The notes beneath the pieces were generated by a model. The model had not been told where the DNA came from. It ran no database searches and saw only the letters and a program-made list of their open reading frames with translations. Below are positions 2,244 through 51,858 of a DNA stretch of 64,000 nucleotides, piece after piece. The DNA comes from a virus. Positions within the stretch are counted from its first letter, which is position 1. Every line of letters starts with the position of its first letter. The stretch lies in IMG/VR virus record IMGVR_UViG_3300034101_003479, positions 1 through 64,000 of that record. One strand, 5' to 3'. The translations under genes were made by a program, and so were the position numbers.

Positions 2244-2272
2244 ATTCTATCATTTAAATATTAAAGGGGCAA
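2244..2272 (-). promoter_or_regulatory. Promoter TTGCCC-N17-(TGA)TAGAAT, leaderless layout
   Basis: -10 TAGAAT (2244..2249) with TG extension; -35-like TTGCCC (2267..2272) lies in the left-coordinate arm of the terminator hairpin. The predicted start coincides with the A of ATG at 2237. Confidence 0.6.
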
Positions 2273-2294
2273 GACCTAAGCCCTGCCCCTTTAA
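2255..2294 (-). terminator. Rho-independent terminator after the secreted Ig-like gene
   Basis: 11-bp perfect arms (TTAAAGGGGCA / TGCCCCTTTAA; 2261..2271 and 2284..2294), 12-base loop, followed on the minus strand by a U/A-rich stretch. It lies 10 bases past the stop of the 340-residue gene. Confidence 0.85.
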
Positions 2295-2304
2295 TTGAAG
2301 TTAT

Positions 2305-3429: not shown

Positions 3430-3633
3430 TTAATTTAATTCATTTACTCTAACTTGAAAAGAACAGGGGTCTCCGCCCTCTTCCCACTCTTGCATTTCTT
3501 CGTCAGACATTGGGGGAGCATCATGTGTATTGCAAAATACATCTGAAATCCATCCTCGATCATAGCCATTTTTAAGCCATATTTCAAACTCTACGTGATT
3601 TATATATCCTTCGTCAGGATCTAATTCATCCAC
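3430..3633 (-). CDS. Acidic hypothetical protein
   Basis: 67 residues, GTG start at 3633, overlapping the thioredoxin gene's end by 13 bases. Very acidic, with conserved-looking FCNTHDAPPMSDEE and GGDPCSF stretches holding two Cys and one His that might bind metal. It resembles hypothetical proteins I recall from actinobacterial phages; no function is known to me. Confidence 0.75.
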   Translation of the reverse strand: MDELDPDEGYINHVEFEIWLKNGYDRGWISDVFCNTHDAPPMSDEEMQEWEEGGDPCSFQVRVNELN

Positions 3634-3926
3634 TGCTCGATCTCCTTTAGCATTAAATGTTTTGGCTTTGCCCCAATGATTCTTTTTACTTCTTCTCCAT
3701 TTTCAAAAACAATTGTAGTTGGTAAAGATATAATCCCATACTTTTCTACCATACTCTTATTTTCGTCAGCATTTATTTTACCAACCCATATCGAGCACTC
3801 CTCAGATATTTCATCTAAAATTGGAGAAAACATCTTGCACGGCCTACACCACTCTGCCCAGAAATCAACTAAGATTACCTTGTGGGTAGAAATAGCTGTT
3901 TGAAAATTGTTGTCGTCGACTATCAT
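3621..3926 (-). CDS. Thioredoxin (WCRPC active site)
   Basis: 101 residues from the second in-frame ATG (3926). Thioredoxin fold: VDFWAEWCRPCK at 20-31 with redox Cys27/Cys30, and the cis-proline loop SLPTT. The usual active site is WCGPC; Arg replaces Gly here. I chose 3926 because the earlier ATG at 3935 lies inside the -10 box of a consensus promoter whose start point falls at 3926. It reduces disulfides in the cytoplasm. Phage thioredoxins may serve ribonucleotide reduction, polymerase processivity or host redox; which applies here is not visible. Confidence 0.93.
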   Translation of the reverse strand: MIVDDNNFQTAISTHKVILVDFWAEWCRPCKMFSPILDEISEECSIWVGKINADENKSMVEKYGIISLPTTIVFENGEEVKRIIGAKPKHLMLKEIEQWMN

Positions 3927-3933
3927 ATTATAC

Positions 3934-3962
3934 ATTATATATAATCAACGTCTTGGTGTCAA
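3934..3962 (-). promoter_or_regulatory. Consensus promoter TTGACA-N17-TATAAT, leaderless layout
   Basis: -35 TTGACA (3957..3962), 17-bp spacer, -10 TATAAT (3934..3939), all perfect. The TGA inside TTGACA is the stop codon of the upstream 2OG gene. The ATG at 3926 begins eight bases after the -10. Confidence 0.88.
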
Positions 3963-4546
3963 TAGAGATTGACATCGTTAGGTGTCATCTTTAATCTAAT
4001 TACATCTTGAGCTTCTTTTGGCAAGCTTCTAAATGCCCTAGTTTTTTTAATTATTTCACTGTCTTCTGGTGCTAAATTGACAAAAATTGCTATAACGTAA
4101 TCCTTTTCATCAGATGACGGATACTCTGGTCTATTGTGGAAGTCTTCGTCTCCCTTTAGAAAGACTGCTGAGTTAGTAACACTTGGAAAGTCTACTCCCT
4201 CAACCGTCAAGGGCCAGTTGAGGGTTGAATCTACAATAATATTTAACGTATGAGTGGCATAAAAGTCATCTACGTGATTTCCTAAAGACGGGATCACGCC
4301 GTCTACTATTTGATACTTTACGCATTGAGTATAAACTATTTCTAGGTTGTCTACATTAAATCCGTCTCTAGAAGTTTTAACTAATAATTGATTTATCTCT
4401 TCAGGAAAATGAATAGTGTTCCAGTATCTACCATATATTTTTGTGTAATTAAAATCTTTTGAATTCTCTATATGCGAAACCACATGATCTTTAATTAGAT
4501 TAAAGTCTTTGTCGTTAAATAAATTTTCTTTGTAAAAAGATTTCAC
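3959..4546 (-). CDS. 2OG-Fe(II) oxygenase-like protein (195 residues)
   Basis: GTG start at 4546 after GGGAGA. Jelly-roll oxygenase features: H91-x-D93 (GNHVDDFY), STLNWPLTVEG, and a distal His in FHNRPEY (H137). The protein at 10918..11499 has the same order (HIDSVF, STLDWPIIVNG, VHSRKPV), so the two are paralogs. Such enzymes hydroxylate side chains or small molecules using Fe(II) and 2-oxoglutarate. The distal Arg that binds 2OG is not certain. It precedes thioredoxin and follows an SGNH-like gene. Substrate unknown. Confidence 0.65.
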   Translation of the reverse strand: MKSFYKENLFNDKDFNLIKDHVVSHIENSKDFNYTKIYGRYWNTIHFPEEINQLLVKTSRDGFNVDNLEIVYTQCVKYQIVDGVIPSLGNHVDDFYATHTLNIIVDSTLNWPLTVEGVDFPSVTNSAVFLKGDEDFHNRPEYPSSDEKDYVIAIFVNLAPEDSEIIKKTRAFRSLPKEAQDVIRLKMTPNDVNLY

Positions 4547-4555
4547 GATTCTCCC

Positions 4556-4636
4556 TTAATAAATAAATCTTTTTGTCCTGTTTAATTCTTTTTTTAGCTT
4601 TCTTTTTCTATATAGATAAATAATTTTTTTAATCAT
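4556..4636 (-). CDS. Tiny basic ORF (26 residues)
   Basis: ATG at 4636 overlaps the end of the upstream SGNH gene by 8 bases and the frame ends just before the GGGAGA site of the next gene. The product is 26 residues, very Lys/Arg-rich (MIKKIIYLYRKRKLKK). Coding is plausible from the tight fit, but codon content is simple and the ribosome site weak. Confidence 0.4.
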   Translation of the reverse strand: MIKKIIYLYRKRKLKKELNRTKRFIY

Positions 4637-5582
4637 TGAACAGGCCTCTTTTTTCTATTTCTTTCATAAAGCATGATGTCCAGTATTGGTGGATAGCGCT
4701 TCCACTGTGTCCGTCTCTCTTTTTTAACACAGAGTCTGGAACAGACATTTTGGGATAAAGATTTGCAATAAACTCAAAAAGATCCTTTCCATTCATTTCT
4801 ATAAAATATTGACCTATATACTTGAGATGACTAAGGTTGATATTGTCATCATAAATCCAAGTAGAGTATAAAAGCTTAATGTTATTTGATTTACAATAAG
4901 AAACAAGCATGCTCCATCCAACTGCAAACTCTATATATTGCCTTCTGTATTCATTAAAATCAATTACATTTTCTTTTGGGACAAATTTAGCTGCCCTGTT
5001 CTTTTCTCTTTGTGTGACTGGACGTCTGCTTGGAAGTTCTAGATATTTTTGATTGTATTCCCATCCTTCTCTTTTGTCGTTCCAGTAAAAATTTCTTCCA
5101 ATATTAGGCAGCAATACAAAAAAATGAGTAGGAGCTCCGTATTTTTCTACGTAAGTCATTAGACTTAAAGCTACTTTATGCCATCCGTTACCCGATCTTG
5201 CTAAAGAATAGTATCCGCCGATATCATATTTTTGCTTTAATTCAGAATACAAATTGTATGCCCATAATTCATTTAAATTACCGCCCACGCCTTCTGTTTC
5301 AGAGCAGCCTCCAAATACTACATGATATTTTTCTTTATGATCTTTAGTAAATTCATCGGATCTAAAAAAATCTGAGTTGTACTTATACGAGACAAGCCCG
5401 TCGTCATCACCACTCTCTGTCTTAAATGGCAAATGCGTAAAAGTTCTTGGCCACTCATTTCTATTTTCACCAAAATTGTTAAACCATGTTGCATCAAATT
5501 CATTATAAAAGGCGTCTATAGTTCCTGAACTATTTAAAATATTAGCGTTAGTTATTTCAAACGGATCATTTTTGGTATTCAA
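4629..5582 (-). CDS. SGNH/GDSL hydrolase-like protein (copy 1)
   Basis: 317 residues, TTG start at 5582 with AAGGAG site. An SGNH-type pattern: GGCSETEGVG with candidate nucleophile Ser94, a later GNGWH segment (block II/III-like), and RDGHSG near 290-292 as the Asp/His pair. The paralog at 18877..19863 shares SYKYNSD, GCSETEGVG and a C-terminal D-x-x-H. Phage SGNH proteins often act as esterases on sugars or surface polymers; the substrate is unknown. Neighbours (methyltransferase, sulfotransferase, 2OG oxygenase) suggest a modification cluster. Fold assignment is by motif only. Confidence 0.6.
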   Translation of the reverse strand: MNTKNDPFEITNANILNSSGTIDAFYNEFDATWFNNFGENRNEWPRTFTHLPFKTESGDDDGLVSYKYNSDFFRSDEFTKDHKEKYHVVFGGCSETEGVGGNLNELWAYNLYSELKQKYDIGGYYSLARSGNGWHKVALSLMTYVEKYGAPTHFFVLLPNIGRNFYWNDKREGWEYNQKYLELPSRRPVTQREKNRAAKFVPKENVIDFNEYRRQYIEFAVGWSMLVSYCKSNNIKLLYSTWIYDDNINLSHLKYIGQYFIEMNGKDLFEFIANLYPKMSVPDSVLKKRDGHSGSAIHQYWTSCFMKEIEKRGLFND

Positions 5583-6273
5583 CTTTGCTCCTTAAATATA
5601 TATCATAAAATCCTAATGTGTGTAACGCAATGGCGTCTACTGACCATTCTTTATTTAAGAATAAAAACTCATTTACAGACTGGTACGTTCCATATGGCGC
5701 ATCTTCAATTATACCATCGTAAATTAAGTAATCATTTAGCCCTATTATTCCCCCAGGCTTAATCATGTCCTTTACTTTATTTAATGTATCTCTAATTAAT
5801 CTTCTATCATTAGATAGGTCTATGTAGACATAATCATATTTTTTATCTATTGTATCAAGTACTTGTGGTACGCTTCCTTTAATTACATTGACACCTGTGT
5901 ATTTACTAAATTTATCCTTAATGTATTCCATGTGTGTCTCTGGAGTATACAGAAGTTCATGTTTTGGATTGCACTGGCAACTTCCAAATTTTCTCCAAGA
6001 CCAGCATTTTAGATCTTGATTGTACCAGTCTACTAAATCTACAGATAATGGATTTCTTGAGCTAACTACTATATCTGAGTAGTAGCCCCAAGCAACACCC
6101 AGCTCCATATAGTCACAATTTAAGGGTAACGTTTTTATGTATTCTTCTCTGTTTGAGTATACACGAGCTTTGCTTAGTTGTGATTGTTCTATGTGGTGCG
6201 AACTTTCAATTTCGTCGTTGGCTAAATTTGTTATTTGATTAAAATCAAATTGTCTGACTGGTTTTTTTGGCAC
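5566..6273 (-). CDS. Class I SAM-dependent methyltransferase
   Basis: 235 residues, GTG start at 6273. Motif I is YMELGVAWGYYSD (residues about 56-68), followed by KYDYVYIDLSNDRR and MIKPGGIIGLNDY, the order of Methyltransf_24-type enzymes. There is no DPPY/NPPY motif, so it is unlikely to be a DNA amino-methyltransferase; a sugar, small molecule or protein target is more likely. A Cys-rich insert (GSCQCNPKH) is unusual. Its end overlaps the SGNH gene start by 17 bases. Confidence 0.8.
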   Translation of the reverse strand: MPKKPVRQFDFNQITNLANDEIESSHHIEQSQLSKARVYSNREEYIKTLPLNCDYMELGVAWGYYSDIVVSSRNPLSVDLVDWYNQDLKCWSWRKFGSCQCNPKHELLYTPETHMEYIKDKFSKYTGVNVIKGSVPQVLDTIDKKYDYVYIDLSNDRRLIRDTLNKVKDMIKPGGIIGLNDYLIYDGIIEDAPYGTYQSVNEFLFLNKEWSVDAIALHTLGFYDIYLRSKVEYQK

Positions 6274-6288
6274 CTAGATATCCTCTGC

Positions 6289-6975
6289 CTAAGACCATTT
6301 AGATTGCTCATCAAGAATTAAGCTTTTAGTGTCTTCATAAATCTTTTGTATTTTATCAAAACCCTTGGTGTTTAAAAGCAAATCCTTTGCCTGATCATAA
6401 GGATCAGGCTTCTTTTCTACTGGGACTGCGTTGTTATATCCAGGCTCACCCTTATCGTGCACACGTATCTGGCTTTTGGCCTCTGCCTTTAATTTTTCAA
6501 TGTCGCTATTTTTTGCATCCATATCCAGCAAAGACTTAACCACATACTCTATGTCTGTGGTTGCCTGCTCAAAAGTAAATGGCTTTAAGTTTTTAATATT
6601 CTTTTCTATTCCGTAAGCATAGTTCTTGTATACATAAAAATGCTCCATGATCAGTCTATCTAAACTTACATAGTTATATTCATGTGGCTGAGCTATACCG
6701 CTAACAATACTATTGCCTAGACCAGACATAATTTTTGTAATTACTGAGGGTATTAAATCTACTGGATCTCTTAGTATTGTTGTTTGAGTTATACCGTCAA
6801 ATTTTGCTAGCAAAGCTACTGGGGTATGAACCCTTAAAATAAATGAATCGACATAGATATTGCCACCATACTCTACATCCTTAAGTAGGGATATTTTATG
6901 CTTATATAAAACATATTGTAGCCATGCAGTTCCGCTTCTCGGAGCAGAGTTTATCAATATCTTGTCGTTTATCAA
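6289..6975 (-). CDS. Sulfotransferase-like protein
   Basis: 228 residues, TTG start at 6975. INSAPRSGTAWLQY (residues 8-21) matches the 5'-phosphosulfate loop of PAPS-dependent sulfotransferases, and TILRDPVDLIPSVIT matches the 3'-phosphate-binding motif (R-D-P ... S). The protein would move a sulfo group from PAPS to a hydroxyl or amine acceptor. The APS kinase domain at 436..1197 could supply PAPS. The acceptor is unknown; a surface glycan is a guess from neighbouring SGNH, glycan-type and methyltransferase genes. Confidence 0.82.
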   Translation of the reverse strand: MINDKILINSAPRSGTAWLQYVLYKHKISLLKDVEYGGNIYVDSFILRVHTPVALLAKFDGITQTTILRDPVDLIPSVITKIMSGLGNSIVSGIAQPHEYNYVSLDRLIMEHFYVYKNYAYGIEKNIKNLKPFTFEQATTDIEYVVKSLLDMDAKNSDIEKLKAEAKSQIRVHDKGEPGYNNAVPVEKKPDPYDQAKDLLLNTKGFDKIQKIYEDTKSLILDEQSKWS

Positions 6976-6979
6976 ACGA

Positions 6980-7186
6980 TTATGTATCCTTTAGTTCGTC
7001 CGCTGCTGCATTGAATTTATTCATAAATGTTTGAATAACCCAAACTGCAGTTTCTCCAGCATTAGCAGCCATTGCTTTTGAAGATTCTTCCGTCCTATCT
7101 TCAATGGCAAGACCATTGTACCATTTTTGGTACAACTCCTCGCCAATTTCTTTAATAATTTCTTCTAATACTGTCATGTTAGCCAT
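6980..7186 (-). CDS. Hypothetical helical protein
   Basis: 68 residues, acidic and probably all-helical (EEIIKEIGEELYQKWY). ATG at 7186 overlaps the end of the protease gene by 8 bases; an ATG at 7177 is an alternative start. No family recognised. Confidence 0.65.
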   Translation of the reverse strand: MANMTVLEEIIKEIGEELYQKWYNGLAIEDRTEESSKAMAANAGETAVWVIQTFMNKFNAAADELKDT

Positions 7187-8309
7187 TTATTTTCTTGTTC
7201 CAATCTGCTTTAATCTTAGCAAGCTTTTCAGCAGCAGCCTTGATTTCTAGTTGGTACTGTGCCTCGGCTGCAGCAATTTCTTTAGCCGATTCTGCTACAA
7301 GAGCAGCCTTTGCCTCAGCAGCCAATTGTTCTGCGGTTTTAACCACAGGCTTTGGTGTAGGAGTTGGTGCTGGGGCCTGTGCAACTATTGCTGTTTGAGA
7401 AGACATAATAAGCTTTCCCTCTTGTCCTCTTGCACCCTTGATTATCTTAGAATTTGCATTCAGCATACCAATAACTTCATTATATGAAGCGTTAGGATTT
7501 GAAGATTTAATTCCAACCCACACTGCTGCTGCAACTTGTGTTGAAATTGAAGACCCCATTGCATTTCTAATTTGTCCTCCTGGAATCATAACCTGCATGT
7601 TTCCAGTAGCATAGTAATCTAATCTGTTTTTGTCAAAATTAGAATTGTTATCTATTTGCTCATATTGATCAGACATTCCAATTGATATTGAATCATTAAT
7701 GCATCCTGGCCACGATAGTCTTGATAGGTCTCGCATATTTCCTGCTGGAAAAAATGAAGGGATTCCTGCTGTGACCAATGAGGATAGCATGCCACGCAGA
7801 GTTGGAGTTGCAGGGCAATAATCTGTTGCTGTAGTTAGGATTGCATGGTTAGCTTGTGACATGGAAACCGCTTGAATGTTAAACTTTTCTTTATTATCTA
7901 GTACCCACTTGAGGGCCAATGATACTCCGACTTCACCAGTGGACTGTCTCATTCCAGTTGTGGTATTTCCAATAATTCTAACAAACACGATTTTAATATT
8001 TGGATTAGTTCTAACAGCAACGGAAGCCATTTGCGTTCCATGATCAAATCCATTTGAAGAAATCATGTTAGAAGGAAGAACCGCTGAACCAGTTCCTTCC
8101 ATAAACTTCTGTCCGTTTGGACATGAGGCCCATTCTAACACACAAACTTCATGTGCAATCTTATCTTTAAAGATTGGCAACGAAGTGTCTAGAGCTGTGT
8201 CTAGAATAGCTAATGTAGGGGCTTTTGGTTCCGCCTTTGCCTCTACAGCAAAAAATAAAGTAAATAGTAGTGATGTTGCAGATACTGCACTTATTAGTTT
8301 TTTATTCAT
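7179..8309 (-). CDS. Secreted subtilisin-like (S8) serine protease
   Basis: 376 residues. A Sec signal peptide spans residues 1-26 (cleavage near AKA). The catalytic triad is visible: Asp37 (AILDTALD), His90 (GFDHGTQ), Ser254 (MGSSIST), with oxyanion Asn191 (PAGN). A P/T-rich linker after about residue 315 leads to an Ala/Glu/Lys coiled coil ending KADWNKKING, like the tail of the 340-residue surface protein. There is no clear propeptide, which is unusual for S8 enzymes. It is expected outside the host membrane. The mRNA is predicted to be leaderless. Role (host wall or surface proteolysis, virion maturation) is unknown. Confidence 0.9.
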   Translation of the reverse strand: MNKKLISAVSATSLLFTLFFAVEAKAEPKAPTLAILDTALDTSLPIFKDKIAHEVCVLEWASCPNGQKFMEGTGSAVLPSNMISSNGFDHGTQMASVAVRTNPNIKIVFVRIIGNTTTGMRQSTGEVGVSLALKWVLDNKEKFNIQAVSMSQANHAILTTATDYCPATPTLRGMLSSLVTAGIPSFFPAGNMRDLSRLSWPGCINDSISIGMSDQYEQIDNNSNFDKNRLDYYATGNMQVMIPGGQIRNAMGSSISTQVAAAVWVGIKSSNPNASYNEVIGMLNANSKIIKGARGQEGKLIMSSQTAIVAQAPAPTPTPKPVVKTAEQLAAEAKAALVAESAKEIAAAEAQYQLEIKAAAEKLAKIKADWNKKING

Positions 8310-8315
8310 AATGAC

Positions 8316-8345
8316 ATTCTACTAAATTAGTAGGCAGTTTGTCAA
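8316..8345 (-). promoter_or_regulatory. Promoter TTGACA-N18-TAGAAT, leaderless layout
   Basis: -35 TTGACA (8340..8345), -10 TAGAAT (8316..8321). The TGA within TTGACA is the stop codon of the 56-residue gene; the protease ATG (8309) starts seven bases after the -10. Confidence 0.8.
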
Positions 8346-8512
8346 GAGTTTCTATCTAGTCGTCGTTGATACCATTTCCCAGCATCAAGCTGTGGCTGTT
8401 GAAGGTTGTTTGCCTCTATTAGGGTTGCAAGCATATTGTTAACTAGATCTAATTCAAATTCTAGCTTGATTACTTGCATCTCTAGCAATCTAAGTCTTTC
8501 AGATTTTCTCAT
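8342..8512 (-). CDS. Small coiled-coil protein (56 residues)
   Basis: ATG at 8512 overlaps the upstream stop as ATGA; TGA at 8342. A leucine-heptad N-terminus (RLRLLEMQVIKLEFELDL) predicts a coiled coil, and the C-terminus is basic (KWYQRRLDRNS). No family recognised. The tight overlap on both sides, and the -35 box over its stop, support the gene. Confidence 0.75.
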   Translation of the reverse strand: MRKSERLRLLEMQVIKLEFELDLVNNMLATLIEANNLQQPQLDAGKWYQRRLDRNS

Positions 8513-8718
8513 TCTGTTCTATCCTCTGGTGTAGGGGCGGTTGCTAATGTACCGCAATTTGCACATTCCATGTCTAAAAAGTATGTAGCAATATCAAAAT
8601 TTTCAAAAACAACTTTTAGGTTCCAGACAAAACATCCGCAGGGACAAACATGGGTTGGTGTTCCACGAATGTCCATAGCCATATCGTAGTTTTCTGGCCT
8701 TAGATCGTTTATGTCCAT
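8509..8718 (-). CDS. Small Cys-rich zinc-binding protein
   Basis: 69 residues. Cysteines occur as CPCGC (about 25-29) and C-x2-C (MECANCG, near 53-56), a likely zinc ribbon, followed by the ATAPTPED tail. I recall similar hypothetical proteins in actinobacterial phages. ATG at 8718 lies eight bases after a TATAAT box, so the transcript should be leaderless. It heads a group with the coiled-coil gene. Function unknown. Confidence 0.75.
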   Translation of the reverse strand: MDINDLRPENYDMAMDIRGTPTHVCPCGCFVWNLKVVFENFDIATYFLDMECANCGTLATAPTPEDRTE

Positions 8719-8725
8719 AAAGTTT

Positions 8726-8754
8726 ATTATACTCTAAATCTCTATTATTGTAAA
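8726..8754 (-). promoter_or_regulatory. Promoter TTTACA-N17-TATAAT, leaderless layout
   Basis: -35 TTTACA (8749..8754), 17-bp spacer, -10 TATAAT (8726..8731), ATG of the zinc protein eight bases after the -10. Confidence 0.75.
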
Positions 8755-9300
8755 TGGTGGTCTAACCGACATATTAAATTTTGCTGCTGCATCTAGAGCC
8801 ATTCTAACACGCTTTCTAGGAGTTTTAATTGCTGTAGTAGAAAAAAGCGATCCAAGAGCTAGCTCTTGTCCAGCACCTTCAGCCATGTATTGAACATCAG
8901 CCTCTCCAACGTGAAAGTCAGAGTCCATTGTAAATATTCTTCCAGCGCCTTGTACGGCTATTATAAATATACCACCAGCATCGCCATCATCTGTTCCTGT
9001 ACCAAAACTTCCATATCCTTGTTCTTTAAATGCATCTTTGATAGACTCAATAAACTTTGTTCTGATGAACTTATCTAGGTTTCTGTATCCCGTTGTTGGT
9101 TTGTATACAGGTGGGGTCCAGTTGTATTGTAATATCTGACCCATTCTAAAACTATCAACAAACGCTATACCAAACTGACCAACTTTAAATACTTTTGGAT
9201 CAGTTCTTTGAAATATCAATCCGCTTTTATCGTCTGAGGCAGCAGCATCTCCGCCAAGGAGTACTTTGTTTTCATGAATTAGGGCTACTACACAGGTCAT
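8734..9300 (-). CDS. Proteasome-beta/HslV-like Ntn-hydrolase
   Basis: 188 residues. The N-terminus MTCVVALI would expose Thr2 as nucleophile after Met removal; GGDAAASD near 17 carries the proteasome-type Asp, and the lysine of DPKVFKV is at the expected Lys33 region. GAGQELALGSL near 140 matches the HslV/beta-subunit GxG-G...A pattern. No propeptide is seen, as in HslV. HslV needs the HslU ATPase and actinobacteria have a 20S proteasome; no phage ATPase partner is visible, so this could self-assemble (Anbu-like) or act on host machinery. Cytoplasmic threonine peptidase is inferred. Confidence 0.75.
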   Translation of the reverse strand: MTCVVALIHENKVLLGGDAAASDDKSGLIFQRTDPKVFKVGQFGIAFVDSFRMGQILQYNWTPPVYKPTTGYRNLDKFIRTKFIESIKDAFKEQGYGSFGTGTDDGDAGGIFIIAVQGAGRIFTMDSDFHVGEADVQYMAEGAGQELALGSLFSTTAIKTPRKRVRMALDAAAKFNMSVRPPFTIIEI

Positions 9301-9322
9301 AAGATAAGTATACTATTTTTAA

Positions 9323-10403: not shown

Positions 10404-10704
10404 TCTTTGCCTTCAATCTTTTCCAAACTTCTTTTGTCTTGTGTATATTTCTAGGTTTGTCTATGGACCCAGAATTTAAATAGACGCCACCCCAAACTCC
10501 ATGCTCATTATTTTTTACACCAGACTGGTAACACATTTGTATGACTGGGCAGGATAGGCATGCCTCATCTATGTTTTGTGCTATCTTTTCATCAATTTCA
10601 TATTTTTCGTAAAATAAGTTTGTATTCATTCCACGACATATAGCAAGATGCCACCAATCAAAATCATCTTCATCAATGCCTAAACTATTTAAGATACTTG
10701 ACAT
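10393..10704 (-). CDS. whiB: WhiB-family Fe-S transcription regulator
   Basis: 103 residues from ATG 10704. Four iron-sulfur cysteines: Cys23 (LAICRG), Cys49 and Cys52 (ACLSC), Cys58 (QMCY), then the diagnostic GVWGG turn and a basic C-terminus. Wbl proteins hold a [4Fe-4S] cluster and bind the host primary sigma factor; they are confined to actinobacteria and their phages, hence the host inference. A frame extension to 10737 exists, but a GGAGG box lies inside it, 13 bases before 10704, favouring the shorter start. It probably retunes host or phage transcription; in mycobacteriophage TM4 a WhiB protein inhibits host WhiB2. Confidence 0.92.
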   Translation of the reverse strand: MSSILNSLGIDEDDFDWWHLAICRGMNTNLFYEKYEIDEKIAQNIDEACLSCPVIQMCYQSGVKNNEHGVWGGVYLNSGSIDKPRNIHKTKEVWKRLKAKNVH

Positions 10705-14436: not shown

Positions 14437-14442
14437 ATTATA
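14437..14442 (-). promoter_or_regulatory. -10 box (TATAAT), possible leaderless promoter
   Basis: TATAAT with no recognisable -35 and no TG extension; the lipoprotein ATG begins at the seventh base after it. Weak on its own, supported by the same geometry elsewhere. Confidence 0.4.
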
Positions 14443-14444
14443 CC

Positions 14445-14627
14445 CTACTCTGAATCCTTATTTCTGATTGGGCTAGTTGCTACCCATAAAGCAGTCGTGG
14501 CTATAATTCCATATCCAACAATAGTCTTTGCACTTCCGTCCAGAACTACCCAAGCAATAAACATTCCAAGAAGGGTCCATGCTTGGTCAACCATATCTTT
14601 TAGGATATTCTTTATTATTCTTACCAT
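14445..14627 (-). CDS. Small two-TM membrane protein
   Basis: 60 residues: amphipathic N-terminus (MVRIIKNILKDMVDQAW), then TLLGMFIAWVVL and IVGYGIIATTALWVA hydrophobic segments and a charged end. A second holin candidate, or a tail/lysis accessory protein. The start overlaps the end of the 846-residue gene. Confidence 0.65.
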   Translation of the reverse strand: MVRIIKNILKDMVDQAWTLLGMFIAWVVLDGSAKTIVGYGIIATTALWVATSPIRNKDSE

Positions 14628-17161
14628 TTTCTTCCTCCTCGTGAACCTGGTGAATTAGCTCCTGATGAGCCTCCCCCAGAATTTCCTCCGCCTCCTGTGC
14701 CACCTCCAGTGGCTCCTCCTGTGGCAACTGCTGCTGCGTTAATTGCTGCACCTGCTGCGACAACTGTTGCTACAACCATTTCTGTTGCCTCTTCTCTTTC
14801 TTCATCTGACATATCGGCGCCTATATTGCTTAGTGCTTCAATAGCCGCTCCAGGGTCTGAAAATGCTGTTGATAATAACTCTGCAGGATTTTCAAGCAAT
14901 ACCAAAGATGCTGCTACCTCTGCTGTAATAACAACTTCGTTACCATTTTCATCCTGCCTTACTTCAACTGGAGTAGATGCAGGTAAGTCTTTATATTCAA
15001 TTCCAGCTTCTTGAATTTGTTCTTTAGTTAAAGATTCTCCAGGAACAATAGACTCTACGAGTGCATCTGCTATCAATTCCTTTTCTGAATTAGTTAATTT
15101 TCCATCTTCAGATAAAGCATCTGCAAGGTTTTGAACTTCTTCTGCAGTTACTTCACCATCACTTGCTAATTCATTTAAAATATCTTCTGCTTCCTCTGTA
15201 TCTATTTTACCATCAGATATTGCGTCATCAACAGATTCTTCTACTGCTTCTTCTGATCCCGTCACAGGCTCTGTGTCAATTGGTTCTGTCTCCACAGGCT
15301 CTGTGTCAATTGGTTCTGTCTCCACAGGCTCTGTGTCAATTGGTTCTGTCTCCACAGGCTCTGTGTCAATTGGTTCTGTCTCCACAGGCTCTGTGTCAAT
15401 TGGTTCTGTCTCCACAGGCTCTGTGTCAATTGGTTCTGTCTCCACAGGTGTGGTATCAACTGGTGTGGTAGTTACTGGTGTAGTGTCTACAGGTGGCACG
15501 ACTACTGGTGTAGTGTCTACAGGTGGCACGACTACTGGTGGTTCAACTGGTGCAGGTGGAGTAGGGGCTGGCAAGGGCGCTGGTGCAGGAACTGCATCAA
15601 TTACTGTTTGTGCTGCTGCTACTATTGTAGGTGCAGTAGTTACTTTTTCTACGGCTGTAGAAACAATTGCAAGGTCTGCCACCTTTTCAGTTAATGTTGT
15701 GCTTGCTGCTGCTAATGCCGTTACAGTATTTTGTGAAACAGTTGCAATAGGTGCAATAACTGTATTTGTATTTGCTGTATTTGTTGCAACAATAGCAGTA
15801 ACTGCTGAGTTTAATGTAGCAATTTGTGCATTTGCTGTATCAATTGCTGCCAAGACTGCTGCATTGTCTGGATCAGGGGTAGGAGTAAATGCAGCGCCTT
15901 GACTAATTGTTCCAGTAAATCCCGTAGTAGTACTTGTATTACTAATATTTGTTACGGGACCATTTGTAGTCTCTCTTACGTTAAATCTAGCACCATTTGG
16001 GATTGGTCCAGTCACGCTTACATCTGCTTGCCAGGCACCATCTGAAGGATTAACATCCGCATTAAATCTAACTTGAGTCATTTGTGTTTCTGCTGTCTGC
16101 AAAGGATAAACTCTAAGATCCCAAGCAACGCTAAGGGTGTTTGTAGTTGTTGAATATGTAATTCCAGATCCATTACTCCAGGTAGTCCAGTCATATCCTG
16201 CTATAGAAATAGAAGGCGCATTTGGAGTAGAATAATAGTTTGCACCTTCATTTACACCAAATGTAATAGTGGCATTGGACCCGACGTAAACATTATTGTA
16301 TGTGACTCCGCCCATCTGTAAATTAAATGGAAGGTTCATTCGAACACCAGCGTCATCTACATTAGATAAAACGTTTGTGGTAGTGCCAATGGTTGCCGCT
16401 AGAGCATTGACTGCATCTTGAGCGTTATTAATTGCTACGTTTGCTTGAGTTAATTGTGTTTGAGCCTCTGTCCGTGCAGGTGTTACTGCTGCCACTGCCG
16501 TAGTTGCTGTAGCAACTGTTGTAGTGGCCGTATCTATTGCTGTTTGTGCTGATTGAACTAAAACTGTGGCCGTTTCTGATTGGGCAACTTCTGTTGCAAT
16601 TGCTGTGGCTACTTGTGCAACTGTGGTTGGGGTCTCTGTCATTAATGGAGTTGCTGTTGCTATCACAGTGGCTACTGCAGAATCTACAGTAGTAACGGCT
16701 TGCGTTATTACTGCTTGTGCCGCTACAACCTCTGGTGTTTGGGTTGTGGCTGTTGCTGGTATTGCGGCTACAGCCTGTGTAACTGCTGTTACCGTTGAAG
16801 TAATTGTTTGAACAACTGTTGTTGCAGTTTCTACTGCTGAAGATACATTTGATACTTCTGCTACCGCCGTAGTTGCTGCTGCTACGGCCGTAGTTGCTGC
16901 TGCTACGGCAGCGTTAGACGCTGTTACTGATTCAACTGCAGTGGCTATGGTTACTGTTGCTGTATCTGATGCTGCTGCAGCTTGTGCAACTTCTGTAGTT
17001 GCTGTTGCAATTGCTGTGTTAACTGCTTGCTGTGCAGGGCTTACTACAACTTGCTCTGCAGGTGCTGGTGGCTCATTAGCATTAGCAAAATTAGGACTAA
17101 AAAGGAAAAGCCAGCCGATTATAAAAAGGCTGGTTAAAAAATACTGTAGCTTTCTAGTCAA
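14621..17161 (-). CDS. Large secreted/surface repeat protein
   Basis: 846 residues, TTG start at 17161 behind AGGAG. Signal or anchor segment at 8-28 (FLTSLFIIGWLFLF), then: Ala/Thr/Val-rich heptad-like region (about 30-250); a beta domain (about 265-410) with LPFNLQMGGVTYNNVYVG; a second Ala/Thr-rich stretch; a Pro/Val linker; 10-residue tandem repeats TEPIDTEPVE; three EF-hand-like DG loops (DGKIDTEE, DGEVTAEE, DGKLTNSE); and a Gly-rich end. Probably an exported fibre-like adhesin, or a virion fibre. The repeats and export signal mean that host surface exposure is likely. Function unknown. Confidence 0.7.
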   Translation of the reverse strand: MTRKLQYFLTSLFIIGWLFLFSPNFANANEPPAPAEQVVVSPAQQAVNTAIATATTEVAQAAAASDTATVTIATAVESVTASNAAVAAATTAVAAATTAVAEVSNVSSAVETATTVVQTITSTVTAVTQAVAAIPATATTQTPEVVAAQAVITQAVTTVDSAVATVIATATPLMTETPTTVAQVATAIATEVAQSETATVLVQSAQTAIDTATTTVATATTAVAAVTPARTEAQTQLTQANVAINNAQDAVNALAATIGTTTNVLSNVDDAGVRMNLPFNLQMGGVTYNNVYVGSNATITFGVNEGANYYSTPNAPSISIAGYDWTTWSNGSGITYSTTTNTLSVAWDLRVYPLQTAETQMTQVRFNADVNPSDGAWQADVSVTGPIPNGARFNVRETTNGPVTNISNTSTTTGFTGTISQGAAFTPTPDPDNAAVLAAIDTANAQIATLNSAVTAIVATNTANTNTVIAPIATVSQNTVTALAAASTTLTEKVADLAIVSTAVEKVTTAPTIVAAAQTVIDAVPAPAPLPAPTPPAPVEPPVVVPPVDTTPVVVPPVDTTPVTTTPVDTTPVETEPIDTEPVETEPIDTEPVETEPIDTEPVETEPIDTEPVETEPIDTEPVETEPIDTEPVTGSEEAVEESVDDAISDGKIDTEEAEDILNELASDGEVTAEEVQNLADALSEDGKLTNSEKELIADALVESIVPGESLTKEQIQEAGIEYKDLPASTPVEVRQDENGNEVVITAEVAASLVLLENPAELLSTAFSDPGAAIEALSNIGADMSDEEREEATEMVVATVVAAGAAINAAAVATGGATGGGTGGGGNSGGGSSGANSPGSRGGRKW
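15263..15450 (-). repeat. 30-bp tandem repeat, six full copies
   Basis: Six near-identical 30-bp units from 15271 plus a partial leading copy. In frame they encode the alternating acidic decapeptide EPVETEPIDT. Unit length is a multiple of three, so copy number can change without frameshift. It is coding and not a CRISPR array. Confidence 0.95.
15471..15540 (-). repeat. Second 30-bp tandem repeat, two copies
   Basis: Two identical 30-bp units (15481..15510 and 15511..15540) with a partial copy before them, encoding the P/V-rich linker repeat PPVDTTPVVV of the large surface protein. Confidence 0.9.
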
Positions 17162-20176: not shown

Positions 20177-20250
20177 TGCAACAAGTAGGACTTGAACCTA
20201 CGATTACCGAATTATGAGTTCGGGGCTTTAACCAACTAAGCTATTGTTGC
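20177..20250 (-). tRNA. tRNA-Met (anticodon CAT)
   Basis: 74-base cloverleaf: acceptor GCAACAA/TTGTTGC (7 perfect pairs, discriminator A), D arm GCTT/AAGC, anticodon arm CCGAA-CTCATAA-TTCGG, five-base variable loop, T arm GTAGG/CCTAC. G1-C72 argues against an initiator tRNA. CAT could be elongator Met or, with lysidine, Ile2. No encoded CCA. Its 5' part overlaps the 3' end of the carbamoyltransferase gene by 23 bases. Confidence 0.95.
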
Positions 20251-21673
20251 CAGTTAGTATATTATAACTATAATGTACCTGCCAGTCAATAGCATCTTGC
20301 TTATCATTTAATAAAGGCTGCCCTTTTATATTTAAACTTGTATTTAAAAGGACTGGGCAGCCAGTATCCCAATACCATTTTCTTAAAAGCATGTGTAGCC
20401 CTGGGTGTTGATCCCTATTGACAGTTTGAACTCTAGATGTTCCATCTTTATGAACAACTGAAGGTATCTTGTCTGGCTGCTTGCACTTTACTGTATACTG
20501 CATGTATGGGGATGCAAAGTCCATATCAAACCACTCACTTGCAAACTCTTCAAGCACAACTGGTGCAAACGGTCTAAACTGCTCTCTTTGTTTAATTGTA
20601 TTAACTTTATCTTTAATATTGGGATCCCTAGGGTCAGCTAAAATACTTCTATTCCCAAGAGCTCTTGGTCCGTATTCTGCTCTGCCAGTTGCAACTGCTG
20701 CTATCTTATTAGTTTTTAATTCTTCAAGTATTTTATTTACTGGGTACTCTCCGCCCATATCGTAACCAAGATACGGCCCTTTCCAGTCAATATGCTTTCC
20801 GTATAGGGCTGCTGCTGCCCCAAGAGATGAGCCAGCATCGCCTGGGTTTGGCATGATCCAAATATCTTTAAATATATTCCATAGCAATGTATTTGCAGAT
20901 GAATTTAAGGCGCATCCGCCCATAAAAACAAGGTTTGATTTTCCAGTTAATTTTTTTGCCATTTGCATAAAATCAATTAGTCTTTGCTCATATACAACTT
21001 GAACTGCTGCAGCTATATCAAACTTGTCTTGTTCATTAATTGGAAGACCCCAATCTGTTATTCCTTGATGAAAATTATATGATTGCTCATGATACTTTGG
21101 AAAATATGAATCTACTTCTTTATAGTATCTTTGCCAGTCTCCATATGCAGCCATGCCCATCATAATATACTCTTCTTGATTAGGCATAAGTCCAATTAAT
21201 TTAGTAAATGCTGAGTAGAATAGTCCAAAACTGACTGGGTAGTTCTGCTTAAACTTTAAGCTAATTTTTTCGCCTTCCCCTACCCAAATAGTTGAAGTGT
21301 TATATTCCCCTATGGCATCTAGCACCACTATTGCTGCGTCTGTAAAACTACTAGTATAATAACCAGCGCATGCATGAGAATAGTGATGGCTAAATGATTT
21401 CCTAGGGATTGATTTTATATCAAACCTAGGCTTCCAGTCCCCAGAACCACCCTTTATAAATAGCCTAGAGGCCTTTAGGAGCGGTTTTTCGTAGTAGGCT
21501 ATAGCATCAGGTACCCCATACGACAAAGCATCCCCAATTAGGCTGTCGTTGACGTACCAATCATTTTTTTGCTTACTATATCTTTCTGCATGACCAGCAA
21601 ATAATATTTCTCCATCTTTAATTAAAGATACTGAGGCGTCGTGTGATGTTTCATTTACTCCCAGAATTATCAT
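20228..21673 (-). CDS. Carbamoyltransferase (NodU/CmcH/TobZ family)
   Basis: 481 residues. The Kae1-like N-terminal domain starts ILGVNETSHDASVSL with metal-binding His in HHYSHA; the C-terminal YrdC-like part has GRAEYGPRALGNRSILADPR and FRPFAPVV, the family hallmarks. It transfers a carbamoyl group from carbamoyl phosphate via carbamoyl-AMP to a hydroxyl, usually of a sugar or natural product. The gene's last codons lie inside the tRNA-Met gene. It fits with the sugar nucleotidyltransferase and glycosyltransferase upstream as part of glycan (or nucleotide) decoration. Confidence 0.93.
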   Translation of the reverse strand: MIILGVNETSHDASVSLIKDGEILFAGHAERYSKQKNDWYVNDSLIGDALSYGVPDAIAYYEKPLLKASRLFIKGGSGDWKPRFDIKSIPRKSFSHHYSHACAGYYTSSFTDAAIVVLDAIGEYNTSTIWVGEGEKISLKFKQNYPVSFGLFYSAFTKLIGLMPNQEEYIMMGMAAYGDWQRYYKEVDSYFPKYHEQSYNFHQGITDWGLPINEQDKFDIAAAVQVVYEQRLIDFMQMAKKLTGKSNLVFMGGCALNSSANTLLWNIFKDIWIMPNPGDAGSSLGAAAALYGKHIDWKGPYLGYDMGGEYPVNKILEELKTNKIAAVATGRAEYGPRALGNRSILADPRDPNIKDKVNTIKQREQFRPFAPVVLEEFASEWFDMDFASPYMQYTVKCKQPDKIPSVVHKDGTSRVQTVNRDQHPGLHMLLRKWYWDTGCPVLLNTSLNIKGQPLLNDKQDAIDWQVHYSYNILTGNNSLVG

Positions 21674-22868: not shown

Positions 22869-24658
22869 AGCATAGTCATCCTTTCTAAAGACTCTGACAA
22901 ATGATCAGGCATCTTTGGCGCTCTAATCATATTAACTGGGAACTCTTCTTCTCTTCCGAAATCGTTATCGTAACTCATTGATTCATATGTGTGAACATTT
23001 ATTTCTTGATTTAAATCAAACCTAGTGCCACTTATTGCATTATATATAGATCCGCATACAGCATCAGCTAAGTCTTTTGAGCCTTTTCTGGGGTGGTCAA
23101 CTTTATCTCTCATAATTTTTAGCTGGAGCAATTCGTCTATGAGCAAAGGTATATGTGGCCCACGCAATCTTTCTTCTAAAACAATCATGGCCATATCGTC
23201 ATAATGTTTTTTAGCAACAGACAAAATCTCTGTGTTAATGCCGTACTGTTTTAGCTGTTGCATCATATCATGAGAGTTCCATCTATCAAATGTGCAAAGC
23301 TTTATATTAAACCCCTTTGTCCTTAATGATAATATATAGTCTCTAACTTCTGCAAAATCTACAGACTTATCTGGGGTCGGAGTCCAGTATCTAACTGCAT
23401 CTACTTCCACTATTGGCGCTGGCTGGGAATATGTGTCTGTGACTTTTACATTAACCCATTTCTGAACATGAGCTATTGAAACCGCACAGTGGTCATGTTT
23501 TTGTGCAAGGTCAACGTGTATAAAATAATGTTTGTCTGGGTCTGGGGCAAACCAATTTTCAAACCTACCAAATTGATCAATGGCTAAAGCTGTGTTATTA
23601 AATGCAACTTCAATTTTTTCTCTTGATTTAAAAAATGCATCTACTGCGTCTGACGGCATGCAGGCAAATCTTCCAAGAGCATCTACAGAATTTTTATAAA
23701 AAGCAACTTTAAAATCATTTATATTTCGTGTTGGGTTAATTTCCCAAGTAGGTCTTTTTAATGCATACACCTTTGGGATGCTATAAGAAATAATATGATC
23801 TTCTTCCCACTCTACAGTAAATTCATTTCCTTCTGTGCCCTCTGGAAGATCCTCGTCCATTTTAAATCTGTGGCTTCGAACTACAATTTCTTTTTCAGAA
23901 ATTACTGAGTCGTAAAATTTTTGTATTGGATCGTTTTTAAATCTTGGAAAAGATAGCAATATAACCTTTCCAAAATCTGGAAATCTGGAATCTACTGATG
24001 CACGGTACATATCATATATAGCATCTGCTGTTTTTGCTTGATCGTGACCAGTAGTGTTCTCTGTGGCAAAGCCAGATATCTCGTCAAGGATTACAACAAT
24101 TACGTTATACCCTTCCCAAGCTTCTCTCTCTGAGTGTCCTGAGTGAACTGTTATAGCTTTATCAAATTTCATTTCTGAGGCCTTGTCGGTGTACTTGCCA
24201 GTAAACCAAGGAGACTTTTCAATTCTTGTTTTAAACCCTTTAAAAAAAACATTGTTTGCTTGCTGTGCGTTAATAGCAATATTCAAAATATCAATAGCAT
24301 CGCCTGGCGGCTTTCCATAATAAGACGCTGGGTCTTTGAGGCACAGTAGTAAATAAACGATATAAGAAACTGCGATAGTAGAGCAGTAGTCTTTTCCAGA
24401 ACCTTTTCCTAATTGAGCAATTACTTCGGTAGCCGTTTGTTTAAATATTCTTCTTCCTTCATCTTCTCCAAAAAGTTTTATTAAAGTAGACTCTTTGTAT
24501 ATCTGGGAAGACTTCTCTATTAATGCATACTGGTAATTAGATAAGGGAGGTAGCGCTAGATAATTTGGGCTTGTAACAAACTCACGAAGATCAACTGGCC
24601 TTTCTTCAAACTCTTCGCCATCTAAAATATCGATAAGATCATTAAAGTTAAGATTCAT
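22865..24658 (-). CDS. terL: Terminase large subunit
   Basis: 597 residues. ATPase domain: Walker A QLGKGSGKD (82-90) and Walker B VVILDE (188-193), then a C-terminal RNase H-like nuclease with HVDLAQKHDH (first Asp), TFDRWNSHD and DLADAVCGS (last Asp). It cuts and pumps DNA into procapsids. The small subunit candidate lies just upstream with an 11-base overlap. The head genes are not next to it, so packaging and head genes are separated in this genome. Confidence 0.95.
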   Translation of the reverse strand: MNLNFNDLIDILDGEEFEERPVDLREFVTSPNYLALPPLSNYQYALIEKSSQIYKESTLIKLFGEDEGRRIFKQTATEVIAQLGKGSGKDYCSTIAVSYIVYLLLCLKDPASYYGKPPGDAIDILNIAINAQQANNVFFKGFKTRIEKSPWFTGKYTDKASEMKFDKAITVHSGHSEREAWEGYNVIVVILDEISGFATENTTGHDQAKTADAIYDMYRASVDSRFPDFGKVILLSFPRFKNDPIQKFYDSVISEKEIVVRSHRFKMDEDLPEGTEGNEFTVEWEEDHIISYSIPKVYALKRPTWEINPTRNINDFKVAFYKNSVDALGRFACMPSDAVDAFFKSREKIEVAFNNTALAIDQFGRFENWFAPDPDKHYFIHVDLAQKHDHCAVSIAHVQKWVNVKVTDTYSQPAPIVEVDAVRYWTPTPDKSVDFAEVRDYILSLRTKGFNIKLCTFDRWNSHDMMQQLKQYGINTEILSVAKKHYDDMAMIVLEERLRGPHIPLLIDELLQLKIMRDKVDHPRKGSKDLADAVCGSIYNAISGTRFDLNQEINVHTYESMSYDNDFGREEEFPVNMIRAPKMPDHLSESLERMTML

Positions 24659-25184
24659 TTACCTGCTCAATTATCTCTATTGGCTCGACCAACCCAGTAA
24701 TTTGAGAAAGTCTTTTTGCTACATCCATTTTACATTTTGGGCAAGAGGCAGTAACTTCTTTTAAAATCTTAATTAATATTTCTTGCTTATGCTCTGTTTC
24801 TGCAATTTGAGATGCCATTTCTGCATTGTCAAGAATGCCAACTTCTTTAAGCATTGTAATTCTTTTTGTTTCAATATCTGCTATAAGCTTTAGGGCGCCC
24901 GCCTTTACGCTAAGTTGACCTTGAGTATCCGCATCTTCTACCGTTTTCCAGGCCTCTTTGATAAGCATAGAGTAATGCTTGTCAGCTCCAGATATAGCCT
25001 CTTTAGCTCTTTCTTTAGAAGCGTTATCGTTATGAACAACAGTCTTCCACTCATCTATAAGGTCAACGACTTCAGCTCTTTTAAAGCCAGTCATAGTAGC
25101 AATTTGTGTTGGGTTGTTGCCTTTTAAAAGTTCGGCAACTACCTTATTCATGCGATCAAAATGATCAGCTAATTCAATTTCCAT
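24648..25184 (-). CDS. Terminase small subunit candidate
   Basis: 178 residues: N-terminal helix-turn-helix-like region (GNNPTQIATMTGFKRAEVVDLI), a helical middle, and a CPKC pair in the C-terminal third. Position just before terL and the DNA-binding N-terminus suggest TerS, but similarity is not obvious by eye. Its mRNA begins 0-2 bases before the ATG from a consensus promoter. Confidence 0.65.
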   Translation of the reverse strand: MEIELADHFDRMNKVVAELLKGNNPTQIATMTGFKRAEVVDLIDEWKTVVHNDNASKERAKEAISGADKHYSMLIKEAWKTVEDADTQGQLSVKAGALKLIADIETKRITMLKEVGILDNAEMASQIAETEHKQEILIKILKEVTASCPKCKMDVAKRLSQITGLVEPIEIIEQVNES

Positions 25185-25192
25185 ATATATTT

Positions 25193-25221
25193 ATTATAAT
25201 TCTAGTTGACTAAAATGTCAA
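25193..25221 (-). promoter_or_regulatory. Consensus promoter TTGACA-N17-TATAAT, leaderless layout
   Basis: -35 TTGACA (25216..25221) and -10 TATAAT (25193..25198), both perfect with a 17-bp spacer. The TGA of the -35 is the stop codon of the upstream gene; the TerS ATG starts nine bases past the -10. Confidence 0.88.
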
Positions 25222-25556
25222 TTGGAATTTGCTTTAGCAATTTTAAGTAAGATTAAATAACCTATCATATCGTCAATATCATTATCTCCAGCAAACCCTT
25301 TGCCATTCTTAATTCTATTTATTTTATCATCAATACGAATTTTAATTTGCTCTTGATTGTCCGCCTGAGAAAATATACGAATTGGGGTCAAAGCTGAGTC
25401 TCCGTAGGATATATTCTTTTCAATCAACATTTGTGCTATTTCAAGACACTCTACAATTATCTTATTTCCAGATGGTGCATCTGTTGCCATTAACTGTAAA
25501 TCTGTAACCCACATTTGATACCCGTTTTCTTTATTTGGATATGATGTAAATCCCAT
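25218..25556 (-). CDS. DUF1599-type (nucleotide modification associated domain 1)
   Basis: 112 residues. LIEKNISYGDSALTPIRIFS followed by IKIRIDDKINRI and DDMIGYLILLK matches the Nmad1/DUF1599 pattern. This domain is predicted to work with modified nucleotides in phages and some bacteria; its reaction is not established. It sits beside a nucleotidyltransferase and glycosyltransferase, which could fit base glycosylation, though that remains speculation. Confidence 0.75.
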   Translation of the reverse strand: MGFTSYPNKENGYQMWVTDLQLMATDAPSGNKIIVECLEIAQMLIEKNISYGDSALTPIRIFSQADNQEQIKIRIDDKINRIKNGKGFAGDNDIDDMIGYLILLKIAKANSN

Positions 25557-27717: not shown

Positions 27718-27744
27718 ATTATACTCCTATTATCTTTTAGTCAA
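27718..27744 (-). promoter_or_regulatory. Possible promoter TTGACT-N15-TATAAT, leaderless layout
   Basis: TATAAT (27718..27723) with the hydroxylase ATG at the seventh base; TTGACT (27739..27744) has a short 15-bp spacer and overlaps the last codons of the resolvase gene. Confidence 0.45.
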
Positions 27745-51042: not shown

Positions 51043-51843
51043 TTAAAGTGGCGTTGAGTATGCAGACCTATATGTTTGTCCGTTTACTCCAACTACCACT
51101 GTTCTTACTCTTAGCCACCTAGGAGATGAAGTTGATGCAGTATCTCCATTTCTTGAGCTAACTCTATATTTTCTCATATAACTACTAGTTCCAATTTGAT
51201 AATTTCCAGAAGATGGGTATGCAATAGTTCCACTACTTAAAGCAGGTGCGGTTGGAGAATTAGTTGAACTAACTATCCACTCATAGGAAACTGAGGAGTT
51301 TGTGCCAAATCCAGAAGCATCATTCCATCCCCAGGATATTGTATTCCCATCTCGCTTAAATACAACATTGGGTTTTGTTGGGGTTGGCTCTACAAAACTA
51401 ACCGATGACAATGTTTGGGTTGATATCACCTGGACCTGAGATGTTAAATTAAAAATTCTTGCATCTATGCCAGAAACATTTGTTGGATTATCACTAGAGT
51501 TTCTAATTTTGATTAGCGCTCTTACCTTTTGCGCTTTTGATACTGGGTCATAGTAGGGTTCGTAAACTATGCTTTCAATATCGGTTAATGACGGTATGTC
51601 TAAAGATTCTCCAACTACTGGCGGTGTTTCTGTTTCTTGTTCTTTAGGTATACCAATAACTGTTGATGTGCTTGATGCGGAATATAAGTTTGAATTTAAG
51701 TATCTTGAATAATCAATGGACCCAGCTTTTATTGCAATATAATCACTTGGGTGCAAATGCAATGAGTCTGGGTGGTCTAACGGGAGGGCAATTACTGCTC
51801 CTCTTGTTAGATCTTTGACGTCTATTCTTTTTGACTTAGCCAT
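51043..51843 (-). CDS. Tail protein sharing a C-terminal module with the large fibre
   Basis: 266 residues. After a short beta domain, residues about 160-266 (NTISWGWNDASGFG, YRVSSRNGDTASTSSPRW, GVNGQTYRSAYSTPL) align with the end of 44908..47886 (FNWGWDNASWSG, IGTTDGDTSTTTAGRW, GTNGQTYSSGFS). ATG at 51843 is seven bases after TGGTATAAT, predicting a leaderless mRNA within the tail operon. Confidence 0.7.
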   Translation of the reverse strand: MAKSKRIDVKDLTRGAVIALPLDHPDSLHLHPSDYIAIKAGSIDYSRYLNSNLYSASSTSTVIGIPKEQETETPPVVGESLDIPSLTDIESIVYEPYYDPVSKAQKVRALIKIRNSSDNPTNVSGIDARIFNLTSQVQVISTQTLSSVSFVEPTPTKPNVVFKRDGNTISWGWNDASGFGTNSSVSYEWIVSSTNSPTAPALSSGTIAYPSSGNYQIGTSSYMRKYRVSSRNGDTASTSSPRWLRVRTVVVGVNGQTYRSAYSTPL

Positions 51844-51849
51844 ATTTTT

Positions 51850-51858
51850 ATTATACCA
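51850..51858 (-). promoter_or_regulatory. Extended -10 promoter (TGGTATAAT), leaderless layout
   Basis: Complete extended -10 (-10 at 51850..51855) with the ATG of the tail gene at the seventh base. No good -35. Confidence 0.6.

Follow-up and report, generated by a model that had tools for sequence, protein, structure and literature searches.

The stretch of DNA analysed here, referred to as the window, comprises 64,000 nt of the IMG/VR record IMGVR_UViG_3300034101_003479 (85.9 kb in total, genome GC content 36%). All genes near the promoter sites named below are encoded on the minus strand (Table 1). Positions 3621-9300 hold a cluster of accessory enzymes, namely a thioredoxin, a subtilase (S8 protease) and an HslV-like peptidase, each with its own predicted leaderless promoter. 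Judged by its genes, the window is derived from a tailed phage infecting an actinobacterium. A WhiB domain, which is regarded as restricted to actinobacteria and their phages (PMC6802176), is encoded in 9 of the 9 related phage records examined, including this one, and its presence in all nine argues for an actinobacterial host. The matches of the large terminase are headed by Streptomyces and Gordonia phages, and those of the putative small terminase subunit (TerS) are to Streptomyces and Rhodococcus phages only. An actinobacterial translation machinery in the host is thus indicated indirectly, by WhiB and the terminase matches. A search for the host among genome contigs was discarded, as its hits were limited to two MAG contigs with the labels Cytophagaceae and cyanobacterium, which are probably mis-binned phage DNA. 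A megablast comparison of the first 25 kb with phage records gave no match. From literature on such phages we infer a freshwater habitat.

Table 1. Promoter elements, genes and associated features of the window.
Feature	Position	Strand	Details
-10 TAGAAT, TGA extension	2244..2249	-	17 bp from TTGCCC; 6 nt to ATG 2237
Terminator-like hairpin ATTAAAGGGGCAGG-GCTTAGGT-CTTGCCCCTTTAAT	2260..2295	-	3' arm CTTGCCCC holds -35 TTGCCC (2272-2267)
Thioredoxin gene, inferred leaderless start 3926	3621..3926	-	Pfam Thioredoxin, 1.3e-25
Thioredoxin -10 TATAAT	3934..3939	-	17 bp from -35; 7 nt to ATG 3926
Thioredoxin -35 TTGACA	3957..3962	-	contains TGA stop (3961-3959) of gene 3959..4546
S8 (subtilase) protease gene, predicted leaderless	7179..8309	-	Pfam Peptidase_S8, 1.9e-9
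S8 -10 TAGAAT	8316..8321	-	18 bp from -35; 6 nt to ATG 8309
S8 -35 TTGACA	8340..8345	-	contains TGA stop of gene 8342..8512
-10 TATAAT	8726..8731	-	with -35 TTTACA (8754-8749); 7 nt to ATG 8718
HslV-like peptidase gene, predicted leaderless	8734..9300	-	phrog_1040 (phage HslV family), 1.8e-11; invariant M1-T2
HslV-like peptidase -10 TATACT	9307..9312	-	6 nt to ATG 9300
WhiB domain (actinobacterial marker)	10483..10656	-	Pfam PF02467, 9.6e-12
-10 TATAAT	14437..14442	-	6 nt to ATG 14430; no clear -35; upstream TAG stop 2 nt before -10
Putative small terminase subunit (TerS) gene, predicted leaderless	24648..25184	-	upstream of and overlapping large terminase gene
TerS -10 TATAAT	25193..25198	-	17 bp from -35; 8 nt to ATG 25184
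Palindrome TTAGTCAACTA, candidate operator	25203..25213	-	TerS promoter spacer, between -35 and -10
TerS -35 TTGACA	25216..25221	-	contains TGA stop of gene 25218..25556
-10 TATAAT	27718..27723	-	6 nt to ATG 27711 (Asp/Asn beta-hydroxylase-like gene)
-10 TATAAT, TGG extension	51850..51855	-	6 nt to ATG 51843

At three genes, thioredoxin, the S8 protease and TerS, the TGA stop codon of the preceding gene lies inside the TTGACA of the promoter. The sequence bears out what the original prediction had claimed for these sites, including spacers of 17, 18 and 17 bp and -10 hexamers TATAAT, TAGAAT and TATAAT that end 7, 6 and 8 nt before the ATG, respectively. The automatic gene call, like the longest open reading frame, places the thioredoxin start at 3935, within the -10; the relatives start with ATG or (several) GTG at the codon corresponding to 3926, 6-7 nt past the -10, and on these comparative data the start is assigned to 3926. 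Gene starts missed by automatic callers can be corrected in this way.

A scan of related phages, suggested earlier as a check, finds a stop codon inside the -35 in 6 of 6 distinct thioredoxin relatives (counting those with both the promoter and a recognised upstream gene), 15 of 18 distinct S8 relatives and 26 of 35 distinct TerS relatives with a recognisable upstream gene. The thioredoxin promoter itself is present in only 7 of 56 distinct upstream regions; the others, from distant relatives, follow different genes and lack it. The S8 promoter is kept in 19 of 22 distinct upstream regions, down to 48% protein identity, and all 19 of these have TTGACA, including those relatives (3 of 18) whose upstream gene ends elsewhere. 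TATAAT or TATACT is found 6-8 nt before the TerS start in 37 of 37 distinct relatives, which mostly retain TTG when the upstream gene ends elsewhere. Since S8 keeps TTGACA, and TerS mostly TTG, with no stop codon there, the hexamer owes its conservation to the promoter and not to the stop codon alone. The coding strand of the window contains TTGACA 26 times; the three copies at gene ends are the promoters of thioredoxin, S8 and TerS, and the rest lie within genes or at other intergenic sites.

Compact packing might put some stop codon anywhere in a promoter, and the coincidence of TGA and TTGACA could have arisen in this way, a reading that we consider only slightly less probable than its opposite. 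Stop positions are indeed varied (gaps of 14-67 nt), the HslV-like genes have a TAA elsewhere, or a TAG inside a -35 of the TAGACC/TAGCCC type in only 9 of 38 regions, and TTGACA persists in the three S8 relatives just mentioned. Coincidence accounts less readily for the fact that all three gene-end copies of TTGACA in the window are promoters, and for the retention of the overlap in the relatives counted above. An overlap beyond the chance expected from tight packing is only moderately supported. The claim of a repeated design stands insofar as the overlap is real and conserved in the thioredoxin and most S8 and TerS relatives; it does not stand as an obligatory or universal rule, and the stop overlap is one of several ways of packing these promoters.

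The TerS relatives are annotated as TerS in some Streptomyces phages, and in some relatives as a helix-turn-helix protein. Four cultured phages of Streptomyces and Rhodococcus were looked at and none has a leaderless TerS; the TerS promoter appears to be confined to the freshwater group. Its spacer contains a palindrome (form TTAGTCRACTA), of which AGTCRACTA is retained in 37 distinct relatives, where the -35 is less well conserved. The palindrome is a candidate operator, with TerS itself as a conceivable ligand, and is offered as a lead only. AGTYRACT as a genome-wide operator was rejected: many other AGTTGACTAGAA hits resemble TTG-started coding sequences (MTRK...), so the palindrome is claimed firmly at TerS only.

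Further starts of the same type are found at 2237, 27711 and 51843, where the -10 ends 6 nt before the ATG, and at 8718, where the distance is 7 nt, all as listed in the original prediction; 14430, listed there tentatively, likewise has its -10 6 nt before the ATG. The promoter at 51843 is identical in two relatives (82% and 65% protein identity). One site absent from that list is the HslV-like gene at 9300 (TTGCCT-17-TATACT-6-ATG), whose promoter is kept in 40 of 40 distinct relatives with the -10 at 6-7 nt. HslV-type peptidases use an N-terminal threonine, and a Met-Thr N-terminus is invariant in the alignment, which supports the start codon without recourse to the promoter. A search of PDB sequences with this protein gave no match, and its structure prediction (pLDDT 39) is too poor to confirm an HslV fold. 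The tape-measure start at 62322 has a -10-like hexamer, yet also a GGAG Shine-Dalgarno sequence, and as a leaderless start it is probably spurious. Beyond the window, at approximately 73281 of the record, lies a further leaderless candidate (TGG-TATAAT-N6-ATG, 576 aa) with a concanavalin/laminin-G-like domain.

At 2237 the promoter overlaps a hairpin instead of a stop codon. The hairpin follows the upstream gene, is GC-rich and has a stable predicted fold (-26.3 kcal/mol, z -4.8); the tract after the stem, AUAUUUAAAU, is T-rich and interrupted. Among the sequences compared, 31 distinct sites are fused in this manner, with an exact spacing of 17 bp followed by N6 and ATG or GTG. The T of TTG is kept at 31 of 31 fused sites, by a G.U wobble in 22 of them; comparable unfused hairpins have at that place G-C in 7 of 30 and a wobble in 6 of 30. 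A second form, seen in relatives and absent from the window, has TTGACT or TTGACC (or TTGCCA) reaching from the loop into the 3' arm of an approximately 7-14 bp hairpin; in all but a few cases 17 bp separate this -35 from the -10, which lies in TATTTAG-TAGAAT. It precedes a gene resembling a pyrimidine-dimer glycosylase (weak Pfam Pyr_excise match over the first 30 residues) and a gene of 68 aa. The stems of the second form covary (41 double-change cells compared with 12.6 in shuffles; score 0.716 compared with 0.238). S8 promoters with the same TATTTAG-TARAAT have no stem. In the cultured Streptomyces phages Circinus and Wofford, a single -10-to-ATG gene per phage immediately follows a hairpin; Wofford has a hairpin a short way upstream of position 83431.

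The element at 2237-2295 and its counterparts, for example in the related loci L319, L213 and L058, resemble terminators that have merged with leaderless promoters. We lean towards a family of bifunctional elements of approximately 45 bp in freshwater actinophages, which would combine the terminator of the upstream operon with the -35 and -10 of a leaderless gene, the -35 lying either in the loop plus 3' arm (TTGACT/C) or in the 3' arm (TTGCCC), 17 bp from the -10. If so, accessory genes would be self-contained cassettes with almost no intergenic DNA. An inverted repeat over a promoter is also typical of operators, and the T-tract after the stem is short; hairpins serving as operators for a phage regulator are nevertheless unlikely, given that the stem sequence varies freely with pairing kept, as the covariation indicates, and that the frequent G.U wobbles point to an RNA hairpin over a sequence-specific site.

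Sequence-variable inverted repeats surround the -10 in many S8 promoters, in the window at 8310-8345 and in relatives such as L274 and L249 (for example GGTACATT-TTAGTAG-AATGTACC), and end beside the ATG. A (TAT)TTAG extension just before the -10 is common to the promoters of the S8, HslV-like, Pyr_excise-like and 68-aa genes of the relatives; the genes are unrelated, and the shared extension possibly marks a promoter class or regulon.

The distance between the -10 and the start codon is far from evenly distributed. In the window, 10 of 88 starts have a -10 hexamer ending 6-8 nt upstream, compared with a mean of 1.08 at other 3-nt offsets (Poisson p ~4e-7), the 10 including the start at 62322, which has a Shine-Dalgarno sequence and is probably not leaderless. 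The same placement is found at 1.05% of the non-start ATGs of the window. Shuffled sequence had been named as a possible refutation of the spacing: dinucleotide shuffles of the upstream 60 bp give a mean of 1.96 such sites against 9 observed, with at least 1 in 1000 shuffles reaching 9, a comparison made less decisive by upstream regions rich in TATAAT-like letters, whose AT-rich composition the shuffles keep.

The counts for relatives rest on 2048 distinct starts in related viral loci. These loci are not independent; they were retrieved by way of a few gene families, which dominate the counts. The -10 lies exactly 6 nt upstream in 200 of 1632 distinct ATG starts (12.3%), with 62 at 7 nt and 34 at 8 nt; among 28,457 other ATGs of the relatives, a 6-nt -10 occurs at approximately 0.8%. 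The corresponding fractions are 12 of 184 (6.5%) for GTG starts and 1 of 232 (0.4%) for TTG starts. A Shine-Dalgarno sequence precedes 15 of 313 leaderless-type starts (5%) and 926 of 1735 others (53%). Four phage genomes taken singly each peak at 6 nt (7, 6, 12 and 7 genes compared with approximately 0.6-1.4 per offset). The pattern TATAAT-N6-8-ATG occurs in eight related records approximately 117 times on the richer strand compared with 33 on the other, and the reversed pattern approximately 5.6 times per strand. Circinus and Wofford have 4 and 3 -10-N6-ATG genes, respectively, in 50 kb. The distance from -10 to start is conserved in the relatives while the 6-8 bases between drift.

Very probably, then, about ten genes of the record have sigma-A-type promoters of their own and are transcribed from them as leaderless mRNAs, with the remaining signals nested upstream. 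Each promoter would have its -10 ending 6-8 nt before the start codon, and RNA polymerase would start on the A of the ATG or within two bases of it. The resulting mRNA with a 5'-AUG would be translated without a Shine-Dalgarno sequence, a mode that is common practice in actinobacteria and established in mycobacteria. The start codon would thus fix the 3' end of the promoter and leave free space only upstream, where the signals are nested: the -35 TTGACA also supplies the TGA that ends the gene before it (thioredoxin, S8, TerS) or, at 2237, sits in the 3' arm of the terminator-like hairpin at which the previous operon would presumably end. Each such gene would form a self-contained cassette with approximately 30-60 bp of non-coding DNA. 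The prediction of leaderless mRNAs, or of leaders of at most 1-2 nt, gains support from the conserved spacing, the near-absence of Shine-Dalgarno sequences, the use of ATG and GTG but not TTG, the Met-Thr N-terminus and WhiB.

Short leaders, with transcription starting 1-5 nt before the ATG and initiation leaderless-like instead of strictly leaderless, are improbable. Distances of 8 nt (TerS) and 7 nt (thioredoxin) between -10 and ATG leave room for a leader of 1-2 nt, and the choice of start site can shift by a base or two, but the mode at exactly 6 nt would place +1 on the A of the ATG. That the genes instead have leaders, with real promoters farther upstream and chance hexamers near the ATG in AT-rich intergenic DNA, is highly improbable, for although the genome is poor in GC, shuffled upstream regions average approximately 2 such sites and leadered promoters with a Shine-Dalgarno sequence do occur (e.g. 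upstream of 44594 and 44846), the peak is specific to the 6-nt offset, hexamer and spacing are conserved while the six bases between drift, Shine-Dalgarno sequences are depleted tenfold and TTG starts are excluded.

The predicted leaderless genes belong to a kind already known, since leaderless (TA-led) actinobacterial genes, predicted leaderless promoters of mycobacteriophages and the ESAS elements are on record. TANNNT near -12 is an accepted signature of leaderless genes in Actinobacteria (PMC3160421), and the restriction to ATG and GTG is an experimental rule in mycobacteria (PMC4633059). The genes described here share with these a TANNNT -10 approximately 12 bp before the start codon, the lack of a Shine-Dalgarno sequence, starts with ATG or GTG and not TTG, and their status as a minor fraction of all genes. 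They differ in belonging to a phage, in their AT-rich full TATAAT/TAGAAT with starts deduced from sequence, and in a -35 that is often nested in a stop codon or hairpin. For mycobacteriophages, published predictions of leaderless promoters cover Cluster O (PMC4351075) and Adephagia P90 (PMC11373665), with few per phage; here a genome carries about ten, which are conserved in many phages and overlap stop codons and hairpins. The inverted repeats of ESAS in Cluster K mycobacteriophages have been proposed as sites for a phage regulator (PMC11373665, PMC3203893). ESAS likewise has a SigA-like -35 and -10 at 17-18 bp under an inverted repeat that recurs in intergenic regions, but its repeats are conserved in sequence (15-17 bp) and lie upstream of a start-associated sequence; the stems found here differ freely, with compensatory changes, and the start codon directly follows the -10. 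With intrinsic terminators the hairpins share a GC-rich stem-loop downstream of a gene and a T-rich tract, interrupted at 2237. The hairpins, whose role in termination is putative, differ in that their bases also contribute the -35 for the gene that follows, at a constant spacing of 17 bp. The open-access literature yielded no direct precedent for an overlap of stop codons or terminators with leaderless promoters, although one may exist elsewhere. The novelty seems to lie in how many such promoters one genome carries, in their conservation, and in how systematically they share bases with stop codons and terminator-like hairpins.

Actinobacterial phages can, on this reading, take advantage of leaderless translation to reduce their regulatory DNA to near nothing and to carry accessory genes as movable units. 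The promoters form a testable set in which signals for translation, termination and transcription would fall on common bases, and a laboratory test is possible because Circinus and Wofford share the arrangement. The results also suggest that the -10-to-ATG signal is worth using in annotating phages of actinobacterial hosts.

Two other features of the window are noted here. An 846-aa gene (14621..17161) with a TTG start contains an in-frame tandem 30-bp repeat (TTGACACAGAGCCTGTGGAGACAGAACCAA) at 15274-15429. Positions 20228-21673 encode a Nol-like carbamoyltransferase (phrog_1601, 1e-102), which may have a part in modifying DNA or the surface.
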